From IMG/VR virus record IMGVR_UViG_3300033273_000557, positions 1-21,759 of that record: a stretch of 21,759 bases of DNA; one strand, 5' to 3'. Shown piece by piece: positions 6,464 to 13,894 of the stretch. The translations under genes were made by a program, and so were the position numbers. A model generated the notes under the pieces. The model searched no databases. It was not told where the DNA came from and was given only the letters and a program-made list of their open reading frames with translations. Each line of letters begins with the position of its first letter. Position 1 is the stretch's first letter. The DNA is from a virus.

Positions 6464-8776
6464 TCAATAGGGGGATGGATAAAGTGAAGAGAAACCAGGA
6501 TCTCCCATGTTTGAGATGTGAGACTGCTGAAGATCAACGCTAGTGTCTTCTACGGTTTGATTATTTATGACTATGGGGTCAGGGCTAGTTCTCTGTTTAT
6601 TGAATTTGGACAACGCTTGTCCTTGAGATTCCATATTAACAATGGCAGCTTTCTGTCCAAATGTTCCTGGTCCATGAACAGATTCAAACAAAGATCTTCT
6701 TCTTTCTTCAGACAACTTTGGATTGTTGTACATTGCATTAGGTCCAGTTACCTGATCATAGGCACCTGCTGCTTGTGGATTTGTCAATTCGTTCCAAACA
6801 AGTTCAAGGAAGAGTTGAACTGGATTCATAAGAGCTTTGGCACTAACACCACCTCTTGGTACTGGTGGTCTAACTCCACCAGTTCTCATCTGTGTTCTTA
6901 ATCTATTTGCAGTGGCACTATTAGGTCTATAGTTTGGATCCATTAACTTAGTTGCAAGATCTCTACCCTTATTAAACATCTCTGGTGTAGTTTTTGCCTG
7001 TGGTTCTAAGAAGTTAATTCTGGGTGCATTTGCGGGAACAATACTTCTAACAACACCACCAGGGGTTTGTCTACCACCAAGAGATCCACTTGTTCCAGCA
7101 TATCTCTCAGCACCTCTCAATGTAGGAGCAGAATATGCACCTTGACCAAGAATTTGTGGTTTGCTAGATGGTACGTAATTCTGACCCTGCATCATAGCAT
7201 TGAATCCCTGAGAATTCATGCCAGTAAATCCTACTCTAGCTCTAGTTCCTCTCGCTAGTCCACGTGCTCCACCACCATAGTCATTTGAATACCTTTCTAT
7301 TCTAGTTCCACCACCAGATCCTTTGCGATATCCACCACCTTCACCAGTAAATAAACCAAGCGGATCCCACCATGCTCTCCTCCTTTTATCCGTTGTATAT
7401 CTCTGAGTTTTTTTCTTTCTCGCACCAGTTTCTTTTTCAACAGACTTTCCACGAATTAATGAATTAGTAATCGTATTAGAAACTCCAAACGCAGCAGCAA
7501 GAGGTGAAGATACTTGTTTCAATTGTTGTGCTACTCCACCAGCAAGACCTCCCATATTTGAGACTGCCTCTTGCATCACATTCATGGTAATAATACCAGC
7601 TGCCTTTACAGGAAACTCCATTGCTTTTTGCAATTCACCACCCATTTCCATTAGATCAGGGAGTTTGTTGTCAACAGCAGCAGATTTTTCAAAAATCTTT
7701 GGTCCCATTGATGGAAGTGGAGTGTCACTGGTAATGGGAGATTTTGTGCCCATTTCATACTTCGGAACCACTGGAGTTTTTGGTTTTGGTGCTACTTTTC
7801 CATCAATAGCACTGGATTCTCCTTGAGTATAATTATTGTCCAGTGGAACAATCATCTCATCGCCATGAAGTTTAGTGTAATAACCACTATCTGGTCCAGA
7901 TACAATACCACCCCTTTCAAATCCTTCCTGACCACCAATTAAAGGTAGCGATAGTTGCTCGTCTCGCTTTTCAGCAGCATCTTGAATATCTTCTAGAAGA
8001 TTCAACTGAATTGTATCTTCTTTCTTTTCATCTGGTTGAATAAGTCTTTCCGTTCCAGAAAGGTCTTTTTCTACTTCAGTTTCATCTTCTCTTCTCTGCA
8101 CTTCAGACTGATCTTCTTGTGTTTTTGCAAGAAGATTCTGTTGTCTAAGTGCATCAATGATAGAATCTAATTTTGTTTCAAGTAAATCAGAGTTTTGCTC
8201 TAGTTGCTTGATTGTTCCAAAGACACCTTCTTTAGCTTCAATAACTCCCTGCTCTGTGTCGTCTAGTCTCTCATTAATTGATGCAATATTAGCATTTAAT
8301 GCTTTAATTACAGCAGCAAGATAACCACCCAGTTTTTCATCCTTTACCTTAACTGGTTTTTCTCCAGTTGTAGAGGTGGTTCCTCTAGTTCCAGAAGAAG
8401 GTATATTTTTACCAGTAATATAGGAAGAATTATTGAATAATCTCTCTTGTGGATTTGCCAGTTGCTGATACTCAGGCAACTTTCTAACATTCGCAGGAGT
8501 TCCCATCAAAGGATCGGATGAGAACTGACCACGTGCTAAAAGATCTGGATATCTTGTTTGAGGTACAAATCTTCTACCAAGAGTGCTTTCAATCAAACTA
8601 TTTCTAGCGGATCTTGCAGTAAACTCCCCAGGTGTAAAATCAACATCAACTCCATACTTTGCTGCTTCTTTATCCGCTTTAGCACGCTCAGACTTAGCAT
8701 CACTAATGATGTCAAAAATCTTCCCGACCAGGAAGGACGAGAAGTCTCCACTAAATGTTGGTGAAAAATTTGCCAT
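6464..8776 (-). CDS. Tape-measure-like structural protein, paralogue of the upstream gene
   Basis: The 770-aa product shares the layout of its 1155-aa neighbour. It has an N-terminal SGDFSSF motif, a coiled coil (about 155-235) ending in QRREDETEVEKD, and a Gly-rich GGIVSGPDSG followed by KLHGDEMIVPL (about 289-312). The last is a motif seen in many phage tape-measure and tail proteins. A Gly/Arg/Ser-rich region (about 450-600) follows, with no recognisable enzyme domain. It was probably produced by duplication and then diverged. It starts at an ATG two codons after the neighbour's stop, with TAA and TAG in tandem. Its likely place is the tail lumen or baseplate hub; T4 gp29 is the nearest functional analogue, though I see no direct sequence match. 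Confidence 0.6.
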   Translation of the reverse strand: MANFSPTFSGDFSSFLVGKIFDIISDAKSERAKADKEAAKYGVDVDFTPGEFTARSARNSLIESTLGRRFVPQTRYPDLLARGQFSSDPLMGTPANVRKLPEYQQLANPQERLFNNSSYITGKNIPSSGTRGTTSTTGEKPVKVKDEKLGGYLAAVIKALNANIASINERLDDTEQGVIEAKEGVFGTIKQLEQNSDLLETKLDSIIDALRQQNLLAKTQEDQSEVQRREDETEVEKDLSGTERLIQPDEKKEDTIQLNLLEDIQDAAEKRDEQLSLPLIGGQEGFERGGIVSGPDSGYYTKLHGDEMIVPLDNNYTQGESSAIDGKVAPKPKTPVVPKYEMGTKSPITSDTPLPSMGPKIFEKSAAVDNKLPDLMEMGGELQKAMEFPVKAAGIITMNVMQEAVSNMGGLAGGVAQQLKQVSSPLAAAFGVSNTITNSLIRGKSVEKETGARKKKTQRYTTDKRRRAWWDPLGLFTGEGGGYRKGSGGGTRIERYSNDYGGGARGLARGTRARVGFTGMNSQGFNAMMQGQNYVPSSKPQILGQGAYSAPTLRGAERYAGTSGSLGGRQTPGGVVRSIVPANAPRINFLEPQAKTTPEMFNKGRDLATKLMDPNYRPNSATANRLRTQMRTGGVRPPVPRGGVSAKALMNPVQLFLELVWNELTNPQAAGAYDQVTGPNAMYNNPKLSEERRRSLFESVHGPGTFGQKAAIVNMESQGQALSKFNKQRTSPDPIVINNQTVEDTSVDLQQSHISNMGDPGFSSLYPSPY

Positions 8777-8779
8777 CTA

Positions 8780-11700
8780 TTATGCCCCAAGCACTGCCAT
8801 GCGATATTGATTCACGTAATCATTACTAGACTTTCTACTACTAGTTATAATAGGAGTGGTGGAAGTTGACGCAACTGTAGTATTAACAATGAAAACCTGC
8901 TGAACTACTTGCTCTTCCATGTCTTCCATAATCCGACTGTTAGACTGAAGATCATTAGGTCTATTGTCTAACATCGGAAGTAATTTTAAGAGTTCTTCAT
9001 TTCGTTCTCTCTGTTTTCCCCTATCCAATCCATCATTGATACCTTTTTTAATTGCATCAACAAATTTTTTAATTGTTAGGTCTGGAAAAAATGGTATTCC
9101 AGATCCAACCTTCCCTGGTCCTACTTTTCCTGGTCCCACCTTTGCTGGTCCAGCGAGATCGGATATGCCATATTCACCCTTCTTTCTCTGAATTCTACCG
9201 CCCAATTCAGACACAGTGATAACACCATCTTGGTTTGTATCTAACCATCTATTAGCTCTGTACGCTCCAGTGCCTCTTTCATACATTACTGTATTAGGAT
9301 CTCCACTAGCAAGGGATGGAGCAAAGACAACTGAATACAATTGACCAGCATCAGCACCACGTGGAAGTCCCCACCATTCAAGATATTTTTCAACATATTT
9401 CATCTGCTCAGCACGTGTCATTTGTAGTAGTGCTGCCTGTGTTGTACCAACCATCTTTGCACTATCTCTACTGAATTGAATCAGTCCAACATAATCGCCA
9501 TTACTCCTCTTAGGATCCAATGAAGATTCCGATGCCATCAAACCAAGAAGATCGCCCTCACTAATATTGAACTTTTTAGATATTCTCGTAAGTTCTTTCA
9601 AAAATTCCACATCATTACCAACTCTCTGTATTGCTGCACCATCTCTAGCCAAATTTAGTTTTCTATAACCACCGCCGCCACCATTTCCAGATGATATATT
9701 ACCCCCAGCAAGTCCATCAGCAAACCATCTAAGAACATCGTTACCAGCATTAAAACCAATGCCATTAACATGCAATGAAATGTGCGGATAAATTCCATTA
9801 TCTGCAGATACAGATCTTCCAGACGCACCTTGATATCCAATCAATGTTCCTTTTGGAATTACTGCTCCTTCACTACTACCTTTTAATGGCAAATCTCTAA
9901 AGTGTCCCATGAGGACTTCATACTCCTTACCATCTTTCTCAAAATAGTAAGCACCATAATATCCAAATCCACTACCTGCGGGACCTTTTGCATCTGCATC
10001 TCCCTGCAATCCAACAGCAGGATTTCCATCGGTTCCTTTTGACCTATAAATCAAATCAACTGGTGCATAAATTGGAGTGCCAATTCCACCAGGAAGATTC
10101 ATGTTTAGACCAGTTTGTTCTCCGTCTTTATCTCCTGCAGGTCCAATATATGTTCCAGATGCATAACTTCCACTTCTACCAGAATTGCTAGATGATACTG
10201 GTCTAGATTTTCCAACTATGATTCTTTTTGCTTCTGCTTCCGTAATTTCATCACCAATAGCACCATTTGCCGTAGTTTTATAAAACCTTCCACCCATTTG
10301 TACAGCAGAATTTGGTTCATTGTAATCTAAATCATACTCAGGAACTACTGTGTTTGAAGGTGGTGGATTATTTTTATTATCAGTATCATCATCTTCCTTC
10401 TTTTCTGTTTTAGGATCATCAGGTACTGTGGAAAAAATTTCTCTCTTTAAGTTACTTTCAAGTGAAGAAAGAACCGCTAATTGTCCTGTTTTGCCAATTT
10501 TGCTTGCTATTGGCATTCTAACAATATCATATGACAATCCCGAGCTTTTTAACTCAGACTTAACTGCTTGACCTTGACCAACACTGTCAGCAAGAGACAC
10601 TGCAGAAGATACTAATGTTGATCCAACCTTATCAATAGACTCCTGATATGAGTCCATCATATTATCCCTATCTTTACTGCCAATAACTGCTTCAGTTCCG
10701 TGAAGAACTGCTGGTCCTGGTCTAGTCAGTGTAGTTCCTTTTTCATACTGTGGTACTTCTGGAAGTCCGAGTGGATTGAAACCCATATCTCTGGCAATAT
10801 CAACCGCAGTAAATGCCCATCCAGCAATTGGGATTGCAGATGCCAAACTCAAAACGGCACCAGTTGTATCTCCTTCCTGCCATCTAAAAAATGCTTCGCC
10901 AAGAGCAATTGCAGTTCCTACTCCAGGAACAAGTTTTAATGATTTTTTTGCACCTTTCTTAACTGCTTGTTCTGCAACTTCTTGTCCAATTTTATCACCA
11001 CCTTTTTTCAAGGCAGTATCTACTGCGGCATTTGTTCCGCGTTTTGTAACTCTGTTTCTAGATGTTCCAAAAATAGCATCTTCAAGACTGTCTGTTCTAA
11101 TGCCCCGCATGGCATCAACCGTGCTTCTTTGCATGAAATCTGCTTGGGCACGAGCAAATTGAGATCCCTTTCTGGGTTGTCTCATGTCTTTTGAGTCCCC
11201 GAGAATTTGTCTTAAAAATTTTCGGTTTGTGAGTTCTTTAACACCAGAACCAACATCTTCAAGATCTCTTCTTATAAAGTCAAGATATAATAATGGATTT
11301 GTTCCAAATATTCCGAACTTACTGCCTCTACCTGTTACCAAGCTACGAAATCTACGTCTTCTAGGTTCACTACCATATAAAGCTCCAGACATAATTTGTC
11401 TAGAAATTGCACCCATAGCTCTAGATCCCTGTTTCCTAAAACCAGGACTTCCCAAAAAACTCAGCAAATCTTTTGCTGTTTGGGTAAGTTTTTTGCCTTT
11501 AACTCCAGTACCCTTGATAAGATCTCCAATTGTGCCAAAAAGACTGCTAAGTTTTAAATCACCACCCGTTTTTCCGAAAGTAGATTTTAATTTTTTAGTA
11601 GTAGATCGGTCTTTTTCAAGTTCTAACTCATCTTCTCTTCTCTTTACCTGTGCCTGATCAGCAATTTTTTGCTGATAATCTTTCTGTGCAGAGAATATAT

Positions 11701-12247
11701 CTAATATTTGATCAAATCTAGACCCCAGCAACTCATTTTGATCATAAATGAGTTTTTGAGTATCAACAAGACTGTCTTTTACAGATTTTACATCACCAGA
11801 AAGTCCAGCAACTCTAACATTGGCAAGAATTAACTTAGAATCTAGTCCAGCACCAAGAAGTTTAGAAAGACCCCTCCTAGCATCAACATCCTTTACAGGA
11901 ATTGAATCATCATCCTTTAGTAATTCTCTTTCAGCATCATCCAGATCAGATTTTGGAGTTTTTTTTAAATCTCCAAATTGTGCTTGATATCTCCTTTCCC
12001 TAGATGATTTTCTGTCTGTTTCATCTGCAGACTTTCTGGGGTCAAAGTTACCTAAAGTCCTATTGTACAAATCACCACCAAACTCGCTTTGGAGTGCTTT
12101 TGCAAATAAAGACCCTGGTCTTGCTTTCTCTAAATTTTCGGTTTCTCTCCTTTCTTTCTCACCTTTTGCCATTCCAGCAGCATTCAATAGTTTTCCAGCA
12201 ATAAAACTGGAAAAATCGCCGCTGTATGTTTTAGTGATGTTTGCCAC
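8780..12247 (-). CDS. Probable tape measure protein with degenerate M23 and SLT domains
   Basis: The 1155-aa product starts with GTG in TAGTG, overlapping the stop of the frameshift ORF, just where a tape measure gene follows its chaperones. In order: SGDFSSF motif; coiled coil ending VKRREDELELEKD (200-213); hydrophobic helices (about 438-490); a VLHGTEAVIGSKD tape-measure motif (514-526). Next come an M23 peptidase-like fold (about 700-845) and a lytic transglycosylase-like domain (about 880-1000, likely catalytic E907 in ASESSLDP). An EF-hand loop DTNQDGVITVSE (1003-1014) and three GPxKV repeats follow. The M23 zinc ligands look altered: TGLNMN replaces the usual HTGID. The protein should set tail length and open the cell wall during DNA injection. 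A hub-lysin role instead of tape measure is possible. Confidence 0.7.
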   Translation of the reverse strand: MANITKTYSGDFSSFIAGKLLNAAGMAKGEKERRETENLEKARPGSLFAKALQSEFGGDLYNRTLGNFDPRKSADETDRKSSRERRYQAQFGDLKKTPKSDLDDAERELLKDDDSIPVKDVDARRGLSKLLGAGLDSKLILANVRVAGLSGDVKSVKDSLVDTQKLIYDQNELLGSRFDQILDIFSAQKDYQQKIADQAQVKRREDELELEKDRSTTKKLKSTFGKTGGDLKLSSLFGTIGDLIKGTGVKGKKLTQTAKDLLSFLGSPGFRKQGSRAMGAISRQIMSGALYGSEPRRRRFRSLVTGRGSKFGIFGTNPLLYLDFIRRDLEDVGSGVKELTNRKFLRQILGDSKDMRQPRKGSQFARAQADFMQRSTVDAMRGIRTDSLEDAIFGTSRNRVTKRGTNAAVDTALKKGGDKIGQEVAEQAVKKGAKKSLKLVPGVGTAIALGEAFFRWQEGDTTGAVLSLASAIPIAGWAFTAVDIARDMGFNPLGLPEVPQYEKGTTLTRPGPAVLHGTEAVIGSKDRDNMMDSYQESIDKVGSTLVSSAVSLADSVGQGQAVKSELKSSGLSYDIVRMPIASKIGKTGQLAVLSSLESNLKREIFSTVPDDPKTEKKEDDDTDNKNNPPPSNTVVPEYDLDYNEPNSAVQMGGRFYKTTANGAIGDEITEAEAKRIIVGKSRPVSSSNSGRSGSYASGTYIGPAGDKDGEQTGLNMNLPGGIGTPIYAPVDLIYRSKGTDGNPAVGLQGDADAKGPAGSGFGYYGAYYFEKDGKEYEVLMGHFRDLPLKGSSEGAVIPKGTLIGYQGASGRSVSADNGIYPHISLHVNGIGFNAGNDVLRWFADGLAGGNISSGNGGGGGYRKLNLARDGAAIQRVGNDVEFLKELTRISKKFNISEGDLLGLMASESSLDPKRSNGDYVGLIQFSRDSAKMVGTTQAALLQMTRAEQMKYVEKYLEWWGLPRGADAGQLYSVVFAPSLASGDPNTVMYERGTGAYRANRWLDTNQDGVITVSELGGRIQRKKGEYGISDLAGPAKVGPGKVGPGKVGSGIPFFPDLTIKKFVDAIKKGINDGLDRGKQRERNEELLKLLPMLDNRPNDLQSNSRIMEDMEEQVVQQVFIVNTTVASTSTTPIITSSRKSSNDYVNQYRMAVLGA
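9107..9151 (-). repeat. Three tandem 15-base units encoding GP(G/A)KV
   Basis: Three consecutive 15-base units, each ending CTGGTCC on the plus strand, encode AGPAKVGPGKVGPGKV in the 1155-aa protein just after its EF-hand. The bases differ slightly between units while the peptide is almost constant. It probably forms a flexible linker and may vary in copy number. Confidence 0.75.
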
Positions 12248-12435
12248 TATCTATTCTTAGCTTGTTCTTGTTTTTGTTTGACTTCTTCAAGGTATTGCAT
12301 TAGGAAAGTGACATATACTTCTCTTTCCCAAGGCATCCAATTTTCAATCTCAGTCAAGCTATATTTATGGTACTGCATCAAAGCAAAGTTCATTTTGTAG
12401 TACCCTTCCAGGTTATTCTGAAAGAGTGCTATGCG
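12247..12435 (-). CDS. Tail assembly chaperone partner, read by -1 frameshift from gp26
   Basis: The minus-strand frame from 12435 to the TAG at 12249-12247 is open and encodes 62 residues, beginning RIALFQNNLEG and containing SLTEIENWMPWEREVYVTF. An acidic 'I-E--PW-ERE-Y' pattern is characteristic of the second, frameshifted part of tail assembly chaperones (the lambda gpT type). The frame joins gp26 in the -1 phase at a T-TTT-TTC heptamer (12441-12435), giving a 298-aa fusion. Alternatively an ATG at 12393, with GGAAGGG nine bases upstream, gives a separate 48-aa protein, comparable in position to T4 gp51. Its stop overlaps the GTG of the tape-measure-like gene. Coding is well supported; the expression route is inference. 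Confidence 0.75.
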   Translation of the reverse strand, partial: RIALFQNNLEGYYKMNFALMQYHKYSLTEIENWMPWEREVYVTFLMQYLEEVKQKQEQAKNR

Positions 12436-13142
12436 AAAAAACTCTGGAGACCCTCAATAGTGTAATCAGACGAAACTCCAGTCTTCGGATTTACAACAGA
12501 AAACTTATGACTGAGTTTTGGCGAAGTTACATAGAATTGCTGAATCTTCTCAAATTGCTTCGTAGTCAAACTATCAACAAATTCACGAAACTCTTTCTTT
12601 GATGTCGTAGAAGAGTCATATACATCTTCACCTTGGAAAATCTGATCAATACTATCAGCAATAAAAGTGTATACTTGCTCAGTTTCCATATCTTTCTGTA
12701 AAAACTCGCGATCAACGAATTGTTGCATACTAGGGTAATTCATGATAATACCAAACTCATCATCAAACATGATTTTCTTGTCATGCCCTTCTGGTTTAAA
12801 AACCTCAACTTCGTTAATATTGATATTTGCCTCAACTTGAGTTTCATTGTCATCAAGACAAGTAACAGTCAAAGTAATCATTTCACCAATAGACGCTGCT
12901 CTAATCTTGAGGAACAAATACTCAAGATCAAAACTAGGAAGATTATCAACCTTAATTCTTGAAATTACGCAATTTTTGATAAGATCCTTAACTGCGTTTG
13001 TAATCTGTTTTTCATCTTGCGATTCCATTGCCAGTAAAAGGACTTTTTCCTCTTTTACCAAAAATGGACGATATTTAATAGTTTTTCCACTAGAAGGTAA
13101 TTCCAATTCATAAGTTGGATACCCAGGTGTTGGCAAAGCCAT
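12429..13142 (-). CDS. gp26: Baseplate hub / tail assembly chaperone protein gp26
   Basis: The 237-aa product has the make-up of the T4 gp26 family (208 aa in T4): an N-terminal beta region (YELELPSSGKTIKYRPFLVKEEK), a helical VKDLIKNCV segment, and FLKIRAASIGEMITLTV. The C-terminus is helical, with FVDREFLQKD and FVDSLTTKQFEKIQQFY. In tail phages this position, directly before the tape measure, is held by the chaperone that coats the tape measure during assembly, and gp26 is thought to play that role in T4. GAGGT lies upstream of the ATG at 13142, and a late-type AATAAATA box is at 13163-13170. The gene ends in a slippery run that can shift ribosomes into the following frame. Confidence 0.8.
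   Translation of the reverse strand: MALPTPGYPTYELELPSSGKTIKYRPFLVKEEKVLLLAMESQDEKQITNAVKDLIKNCVISRIKVDNLPSFDLEYLFLKIRAASIGEMITLTVTCLDDNETQVEANININEVEVFKPEGHDKKIMFDDEFGIIMNYPSMQQFVDREFLQKDMETEQVYTFIADSIDQIFQGEDVYDSSTTSKKEFREFVDSLTTKQFEKIQQFYVTSPKLSHKFSVVNPKTGVSSDYTIEGLQSFFA
12435..12441 (-). promoter_or_regulatory. Candidate -1 ribosomal frameshift site, T TTT TTC
   Basis: Read on the minus strand the last gp26 codons are AGT TTT TTC GCA TAG. The heptamer T TTT TTC fits the X-XXY-YYZ rule for simultaneous -1 slippage, and the -1 frame then continues for 62 codons. GAGGG (12455-12451) lies nine bases upstream, like the stimulatory Shine-Dalgarno of dnaX. A 7-bp stem with one bulge (12424-12418 with 12411-12404) lies ten bases downstream. 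Confidence 0.65.
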
Positions 13143-13170: not shown

Positions 13171-13241
13171 TAGTGCGACTTTTTGACCCAAAAATTGGCG
13201 GGAAAATTTTTCCCGATTTTATGGAATTGAAAAGTCAATTT
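13169..13241. repeat. 73-base intergenic repeat, copy A
   Basis: It aligns without gaps to 16871-16943 with 58 of 73 bases identical. Shared blocks are TTTAGTGCGAC at the left end and GGAATT/AGTCAAT at the right, around a central palindrome. It fills most of the gap between gp26 and the tube gene and overlaps the last codons of the latter. Confidence 0.75.
13199..13215 (-). terminator. Stem-loop terminator between the tube gene and gp26
   Basis: CGGGAAAA pairs with TTTTCCCG around a single central base, so in RNA about six or seven pairs are likely. On the minus strand it is followed by CCAATTTTT. It would end the tube gene transcript before the gp26 late promoter. The matching stem in copy B differs by a compensating pair change (G-C to A-T), which supports a structural role. 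Confidence 0.55.
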
Positions 13242-13894
13242 GCATATGCGACAGTATGTCTAGTATAGTAGAAGTTTACCGTACATCTAGTGATTTGTGA
13301 TGATCCATAAGATAGAGGGACCGCATCAATAGAATATGGATAGCAATTCTCCAAAATGAATGTCATTGGTGCTTCAGTCTGCACAGTTTTACGTTCTTTG
13401 TCAGTCTTAGGCATTTCCGTCTTGACAATCCGTGCCTTACATGTATAAGAATCCATGTATTCCAGACGATTTACTCTAGTTATATCCCCTGGGTCTACAG
13501 CAAGAGCGGTGTTTAGGTCTGCTCCACTATATGTTACTTTCTTTTCACCAAAAATATAATCATACCAAGCAGTAAAGAACTTCAATGCAGTCAAATCGCG
13601 ATCCAACATAAAACCTAGACTCAAATCAGTATAGATTCTTGTATGTGGATATGAAATAGGACCCTCACCGAGATATCTTCCTGTTATTTGTGCTGTGGCA
13701 GACTGTACGTTTGGAAGTTGTGCTTCATCACACAACATTGTTACAATATCTTCATTATCATCCGTATAAAAATCTTCTACAAATGTTAGATTTTTACCCG
13801 TAAAATCAAACTTTACATCAAAAGCGGTAGTCATGGACATTCCGCCCTTGACGCCCATCTTTGCCATAAACTCGTTGATCTTTGTTACTGCCAC
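13235..13894 (-). CDS. Tail-tube-fold protein, probably baseplate tube initiator gp54
   Basis: The 219-aa product shows the T4 tube-protein layout: an early beta hairpin, SYPHTRIYTDLSLGFMLDRD followed by LKFFTAWYDYIFG, and a late ENCYPYSIDAVPLSYGSS that ends in beta strands. It is longer than the tail tube gp19 (163 aa in T4) and shorter than gp54 (320 aa). It stands next to gp48 and gp26, where a baseplate tube initiator is expected. The start is a GTG at 13894 with no clear ribosome site; the ATG at 13867 (MAKMGVKG) is an alternative. A late box AATAAATA lies at 13918-13925. The tube fold is well supported; gp54 versus a gp19 paralogue is not settled. Confidence 0.6.
   Translation of the reverse strand: MAVTKINEFMAKMGVKGGMSMTTAFDVKFDFTGKNLTFVEDFYTDDNEDIVTMLCDEAQLPNVQSATAQITGRYLGEGPISYPHTRIYTDLSLGFMLDRDLTALKFFTAWYDYIFGEKKVTYSGADLNTALAVDPGDITRVNRLEYMDSYTCKARIVKTEMPKTDKERKTVQTEAPMTFILENCYPYSIDAVPLSYGSSQITRCTVNFYYTRHTVAYAN

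Follow-up and report, generated by a model that had tools for sequence, protein, structure and literature searches.

Where does translation of a gp26-type gene end in a T4-like marine cyanophage when the gene is followed, in the -1 frame, by a long open stretch that databases list as another gene? The question is raised by a locus on the minus strand of the window (the whole stretch of DNA analysed here, 21,759 nt of IMG/VR record IMGVR_UViG_3300033273_000557; Table 1). The gp26 gene ends with GAG GGT CTC CAG AGT TTT TTC GCA TAG, in which T TTT TTC stands in X XXY YYZ phase relative to the gp26 frame. Reading after a -1 slip would continue as CGC ATA GCA CTC ... through 62 codons (12435-12250) to a TAG at 12249-12247, which overlaps the GTG of a 1155-aa ORF as TAGTG. 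A sequence-only reading of this DNA had drawn attention to the in-phase heptamer (12441-12435) located nine bases after GAGGG (12455-12451) and to the open -1 frame ending at TAGTG; we saw both as described. A scan of the 19 other main ORFs of the window found no in-phase T TTT TTC.

We consider it very probable, judging from sequence comparison, that a programmed -1 ribosomal frameshift at T TTT TTC yields two tail assembly chaperones from this one gene. Most ribosomes would terminate at the TAG and release gp26 (TAC-N, 237 aa); a fraction would slip back by one base, aided by pairing of GAGGG with 16S rRNA behind and by a hairpin ahead, and would produce a fusion of 298 aa (TAC-NC). By analogy with gpG/gpGT of lambda, TAC-N would bind the tape measure protein, while the extra domain of TAC-NC would recruit tail-tube subunits. 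What the comparison of sequences brings out is a conserved shift site, two conserved putative stimulators, a -1 frame with coding character from its first codon, and a natural in-frame counterpart, gp51 of T4; the slippage itself, its rate and the chaperone activity are what we infer.

Table 1. Features of the gp26 locus in window coordinates
Feature	Position	Strand	Remarks
gp26-type gene, 237 aa, proposed short chaperone TAC-N	12429..13142	-	PF12322, E 4.6e-71; PHROG 150
GAGGG, Shine-Dalgarno-like putative upstream stimulator, 9 nt 5' of heptamer	12451..12455	-	kept in 120/133 relatives
Slippery heptamer T TTT TTC	12435..12441	-	kept in 132/133 dereplicated relatives
gp26 stop TAG, also paired in lower stem	12429..12431	-	same distance in 163/167 relatives
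Downstream hairpin	12402..12427	-	12427-12418 paired with 12411-12402; lower stem 12431-12429 with 12400-12398
-1 frame extension, 62 codons and stop, proposed C-terminal domain of TAC-NC	12247..12435	-	named gp51 in relatives
Internal ATG, competing start for a 48-aa protein	12391..12393	-	in 11/134 relatives; inside predicted helix 9-23
Next gene, 1155 aa, GTG start at 12247	8780..12247	-	putative tape measure gene
Tail tube gene, directly upstream of gp26	13235..13894	-	PF23849, E 1.1e-50

The extension is matched by 557 phage records, mostly of marine Synechococcus and Prochlorococcus phages, with matches usually beginning at its first residue, i.e. upstream of the window's internal ATG; IMG/VR scans added 80 + 80 further loci. 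Altogether 167 loci were compared (133 after dereplication, cyanophages and kin, with locus L143 set aside). At the same place we found TTTTTTC in 163 of the 167 loci and TTTTTTT in three; the codon preceding the site always ends in T. Elsewhere in gp26 phenylalanine is encoded by 1031 TTT vs 324 TTC codons (76% TTT), and still the pair TTT TTC is present in 132 of the 133 dereplicated relatives; conservation of the heptamer is therefore far beyond chance. The zero spacing between the extension stop and the next gene, for which conservation had also been anticipated, is common among the relatives, not universal. Loss of the T run, or a -1-frame stop ahead of the position of the ATG, would have spoken against the sequence-only reading; neither was seen in the relatives.

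A few loci deserve separate mention. In L143 a local deletion at the gp26 end (around 1500) removes the heptamer; it is probably an assembly error or a defective copy. L037 looked like an in-frame exception, but the fuller locus comparison groups it with the other relatives. In loci of the Methylophilales phage Melnitz type (L057, L058, L070, L096) the gp26 TAA is directly 3' of the T run (TTT TTT TAA or TTT TTC TAA), so that the A site of a shifting ribosome would be beside the stop.

The two putative stimulators, of a kind that often but not always accompanies -1 shifts, show signs of selection not explained by the protein. At the site of GAGGG, nine nucleotides from the heptamer, the glutamate codon is GAG in 120 relatives and GAA in 12 (n=132), while GAG makes up 30% of the Glu codons elsewhere (P 2e-49). 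Downstream, a bulged stem ten bases from the heptamer had been suggested; a stem is indeed present, though its main part starts 7 nt after the heptamer and has an unbulged 10-bp core. In comparison with synonymous-codon shuffles the hairpin has a family mean z of -3.5 (window, -4.7), with P < 0.05 in 88% of the 133 relatives, and four control regions in the same test gave mean z of 0.04, -0.42, -1.16 and -0.47. The hairpin is thus stronger than the amino acids require; a clear hairpin is missing in 10 of the 133. Within the clade of the window (33 members) 85% of pair cells form, as against 42-58% when the structure is slid by 1-3 bases, and at one pair a compensatory exchange of C-G to G-C is seen in L021, L024, L026, L029 and L062. 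Hairpins of other clades are in another register; thus, it is structure rather than sequence that appears to be conserved. The change of register between clades also accounts for the outcome of consensus folding of all relatives together, where no or weak common structure was found; the window structure imposed on the whole family did no better than slid controls. Both window spacings, 9 and 7 nt, fall within the working distances given for a Shine-Dalgarno-like element (9-14 nt) and a hairpin (6-9 nt) from the heptamer (PMC5009743).

By its pattern of substitutions the -1 frame evolves as protein from the first codon. Within extension codons 1-14 there is no -1-frame stop in any of 133 relatives, against 122 relatives with a stop in the +1 frame, and differences between near neighbours at the three codon positions of the -1 frame are 0.116, 0.089 and 0.261. 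In 34 relatives with neither ATG nor GTG before codon 15 the values are 0.106, 0.079 and 0.312, so that variation at third positions is 3-4 times that at the other two; having no such start, these relatives could translate codons 1-14 only by frameshift or from an unusual start. A structure model of the extension (mean pLDDT 84.6) has helices at 2-5, 9-23, 27-33 and 37-61.

Could the extension still be a separate small gene, translated by ribosomes that enter at an internal ATG or reinitiate past the gp26 stop, with no fusion made? It is so annotated, as gp51, in public records of S-PM2, P-SSM2 and S-RSM4, and possible starts are not rare: of 134 relatives, 78 have an ATG at codon 4 of the extension, 30 at codon 7 and 109 at codon 20. 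The window has its own ATG at codon 15 with GGAAGGG upstream, the very start, with its ribosome site, that had been put forward as the competing explanation. However, no start codon is common to all relatives; the window's ATG is shared by just 11 of the 134, and an early start with a Shine-Dalgarno match of at least 4 nt exists in only 25. As this ATG is so rarely kept and would cut the predicted helix 9-23, a separate 48-aa protein is unlikely as the main product. Moreover, a gene of this kind would leave the fixed TTT TTC, GAGGG and hairpin unexplained, as well as the protein-like evolution of -1-frame codons upstream of the first ATG, and gp51 of T4 corresponds to the fusion. We therefore regard a purely separate gp51 as very unlikely. 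Somewhat less improbable, yet still unlikely, is a combination in which some lineages make the frameshift fusion and an internally started C-terminal protein as well. The codon-4 ATG lies six bases after the gp26 stop, and in the 78 relatives that have it reinitiation could add a separate product; on the other hand, the methionine may be merely a residue of the extension, Shine-Dalgarno matches are weak, and the window lacks this ATG. As for slippage of the RNA polymerase instead of the ribosome, the six consecutive T (eight in relatives of the Melnitz type) might bring it to mind; the bacterial cases described have runs of 9 A or T (PMC5009743), and the fixed C at position 7, with GAGGG and hairpin at ribosomal spacings, fits translation, making this source of the fusion the least credible of all. 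Ribosomal frameshifting thus is the reading that we retain.

Annotation of the extension varies between public records: where gp51 is listed as a separate gene (S-PM2, P-SSM2 and S-RSM4, i.e. L082-L084, and L096) its starts differ (codon 4, codon 20, others), and several records leave the extension out. In the window, the 48-aa part of the extension matches PHROG 634, baseplate hub assembly catalyst, with E 6e-20, the match covering only positions 71-117 of the 121-column profile.

A fusion of gp26 with its downstream partner had been proposed to link the strategies of frameshifting and of two genes, and alignments with T4 bear this out. Against a profile built from 17 virtual fusions, hhalign places T4 gp51 (249 aa) across the junction, with 228 columns aligned (E 3e-12); T4 gp26 (208 aa) matches the short form along 197 columns, ending ...GLKEFFEL where the shift would occur (hhalign E 2e-20); PF12322 is found in both. 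Genes 26 and 51 of T4 are separate and divergently placed. T4 thus encodes the two forms in genes of their own, a short one homologous to the short form of the window and a naturally in-frame long one homologous to the fusion; unlike the window, it needs no frameshift. The -1 layout with T TTT TTC/G/T was also seen in Schizotequatrovirus (PG216, ValKK3), Emdodecavirus phiM7, Menderavirus Ps15, Pootjesviridae (N34, AF3) and Aeromonas phage G2. In Ackermannviridae the layout is present and no canonical heptamer was found. Loci of Ackermannviridae and relatives (YC, 2050H1, Cba120 and K469; L092-L095) keep the -1 chaperone frame with sites GGCTTTC, GGTTTTC, GATTTTC or GCTTTTT, none of which fits X XXY YYZ; YC and K469 have a TAATG in which stop and ATG overlap.

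Most likely, then, the products of the locus are two tail assembly chaperones, one short and one long. The assignment is supported by homology to T4 gp26/gp51 (PF12322 and end-to-end profile alignment), by gene order and by a modest fold match. Both T4 proteins have been listed among the chaperones of hub assembly; gp51, an essential protein, is not part of the final particle (PMC3004832). Upstream, the tail tube gene is confirmed; downstream, the tape-measure role is putative. The large gene there (8780-12247) and the one that follows it (6464-8776, minus strand) are paralogous over ~220 N-terminal residues (27% identity, E 7e-16), and both begin with MANxxxTxSGDFSSFxxGK.

The predicted model of gp26 (mean pLDDT 87.3) had as its top match in a second-look structural alignment the HK97 tail assembly chaperone 2ob9 (Z 6.8, rmsd 4.6, 84 residues), which at Z < 8 is not decisive; the next match was 3fgx (Z 6.4), and unrelated entries appeared at Z 3. 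Foldseek gave a weak result for the same model (E 0.86), and its matches in a viral fold library were gp26 relatives, adding no function. A gp26 profile search of the PDB returned no match; PDB matches of the extension to HIV gp41 reflected coiled coil only and were taken as chance. The W-x-PWERE-x-Y motif of the extension had been likened to gpT of lambda; profile comparison does not detect the likeness, as hhalign of gp26 and extension against lambda G/T and HK97 gp13/gp14 (single sequences on one side) gave no significant match.

For two decades, annotation of cyanophages has listed gp26 and gp51 as two genes of the baseplate hub; most likely they are one frameshifted chaperone gene, and hundreds of records would then carry a split annotation, given the number that match the extension. 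With its conserved set of stimulators the locus would make a good natural series in which to measure how the ratio of short to long chaperone depends on frameshift efficiency. In their abstract, Vladimirov, Gautam and Davidson (2022) reportedly mention genes 26 and 51 and describe frameshifting as retained in several T4-like groups.

That chaperone genes of many tailed phages, T4-like ones included, use a -1 frameshift is already known. As late as 2016 a review named T4 as an exception to the conservation of G-T frameshifting (PMC5009743). Identification of the T4-like chaperone genes is credited to Vladimirov et al. 2022 (Virology 566:9-15) in passages of two papers citing it (PMC10885494, PMC12846349), the latter naming it as the source on poly-T signals for frameshifting in the TAC-N genes of T4-like phages. 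The link between frameshift and two-gene strategies is, as these passages present it, the subject of that work and not new. According to a passage of PMC10885494, T4 encodes the short and the long protein in different genes, and the long protein consists of the short form plus a C-terminal part. In the literature searched, no paper on stimulators in cyanophages was found, which is weak evidence of novelty; what is new here may be confined to the conserved dnaX-like stimulators.

Among known systems, the TAC locus of Vandenendeviridae and Andersonviridae (phage Adele), as far as a passage of PMC12846349 describes it, resembles ours in a conserved -1 shift at a T run ending TAC-N and an open -1 frame before the tape measure gene; it differs in belonging to other families and in its motif, GTTTTT, and the passage makes no mention of stimulators. 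With gpG/gpGT of lambda the window shares a gene 5' of a tape measure gene (putative here), a -1 shift near the end of this gene, and short and long products, of which in lambda the short form acts on the tape measure and the extra domain recruits tube subunits (PMC5009743). The lambda heptamer is GGGAAAG rather than T TTT TTC, and sequence similarity is not detectable; furthermore, shifts of lambda-type phages were described as seeming to lack stimulators (PMC5009743), whereas two are conserved in the family of the window. In this respect E. coli dnaX is closer, having a heptamer flanked at similar distances by a Shine-Dalgarno-like element and a hairpin (PMC5009743), although it is another gene with A AAA AAG in place of T TTT TTC, and in the window the shifted product would be the longer one. 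It is plausible, though slightly less likely than not, that in cyanophage relatives of T4 the chaperone shift is driven by all three parts of a dnaX-type signal (U UUU UUC, hairpin and anti-Shine-Dalgarno element) under selection beyond coding, so that its rate would be higher than that of the lambda type or adapted to the host, with a different ratio of long to short chaperone.
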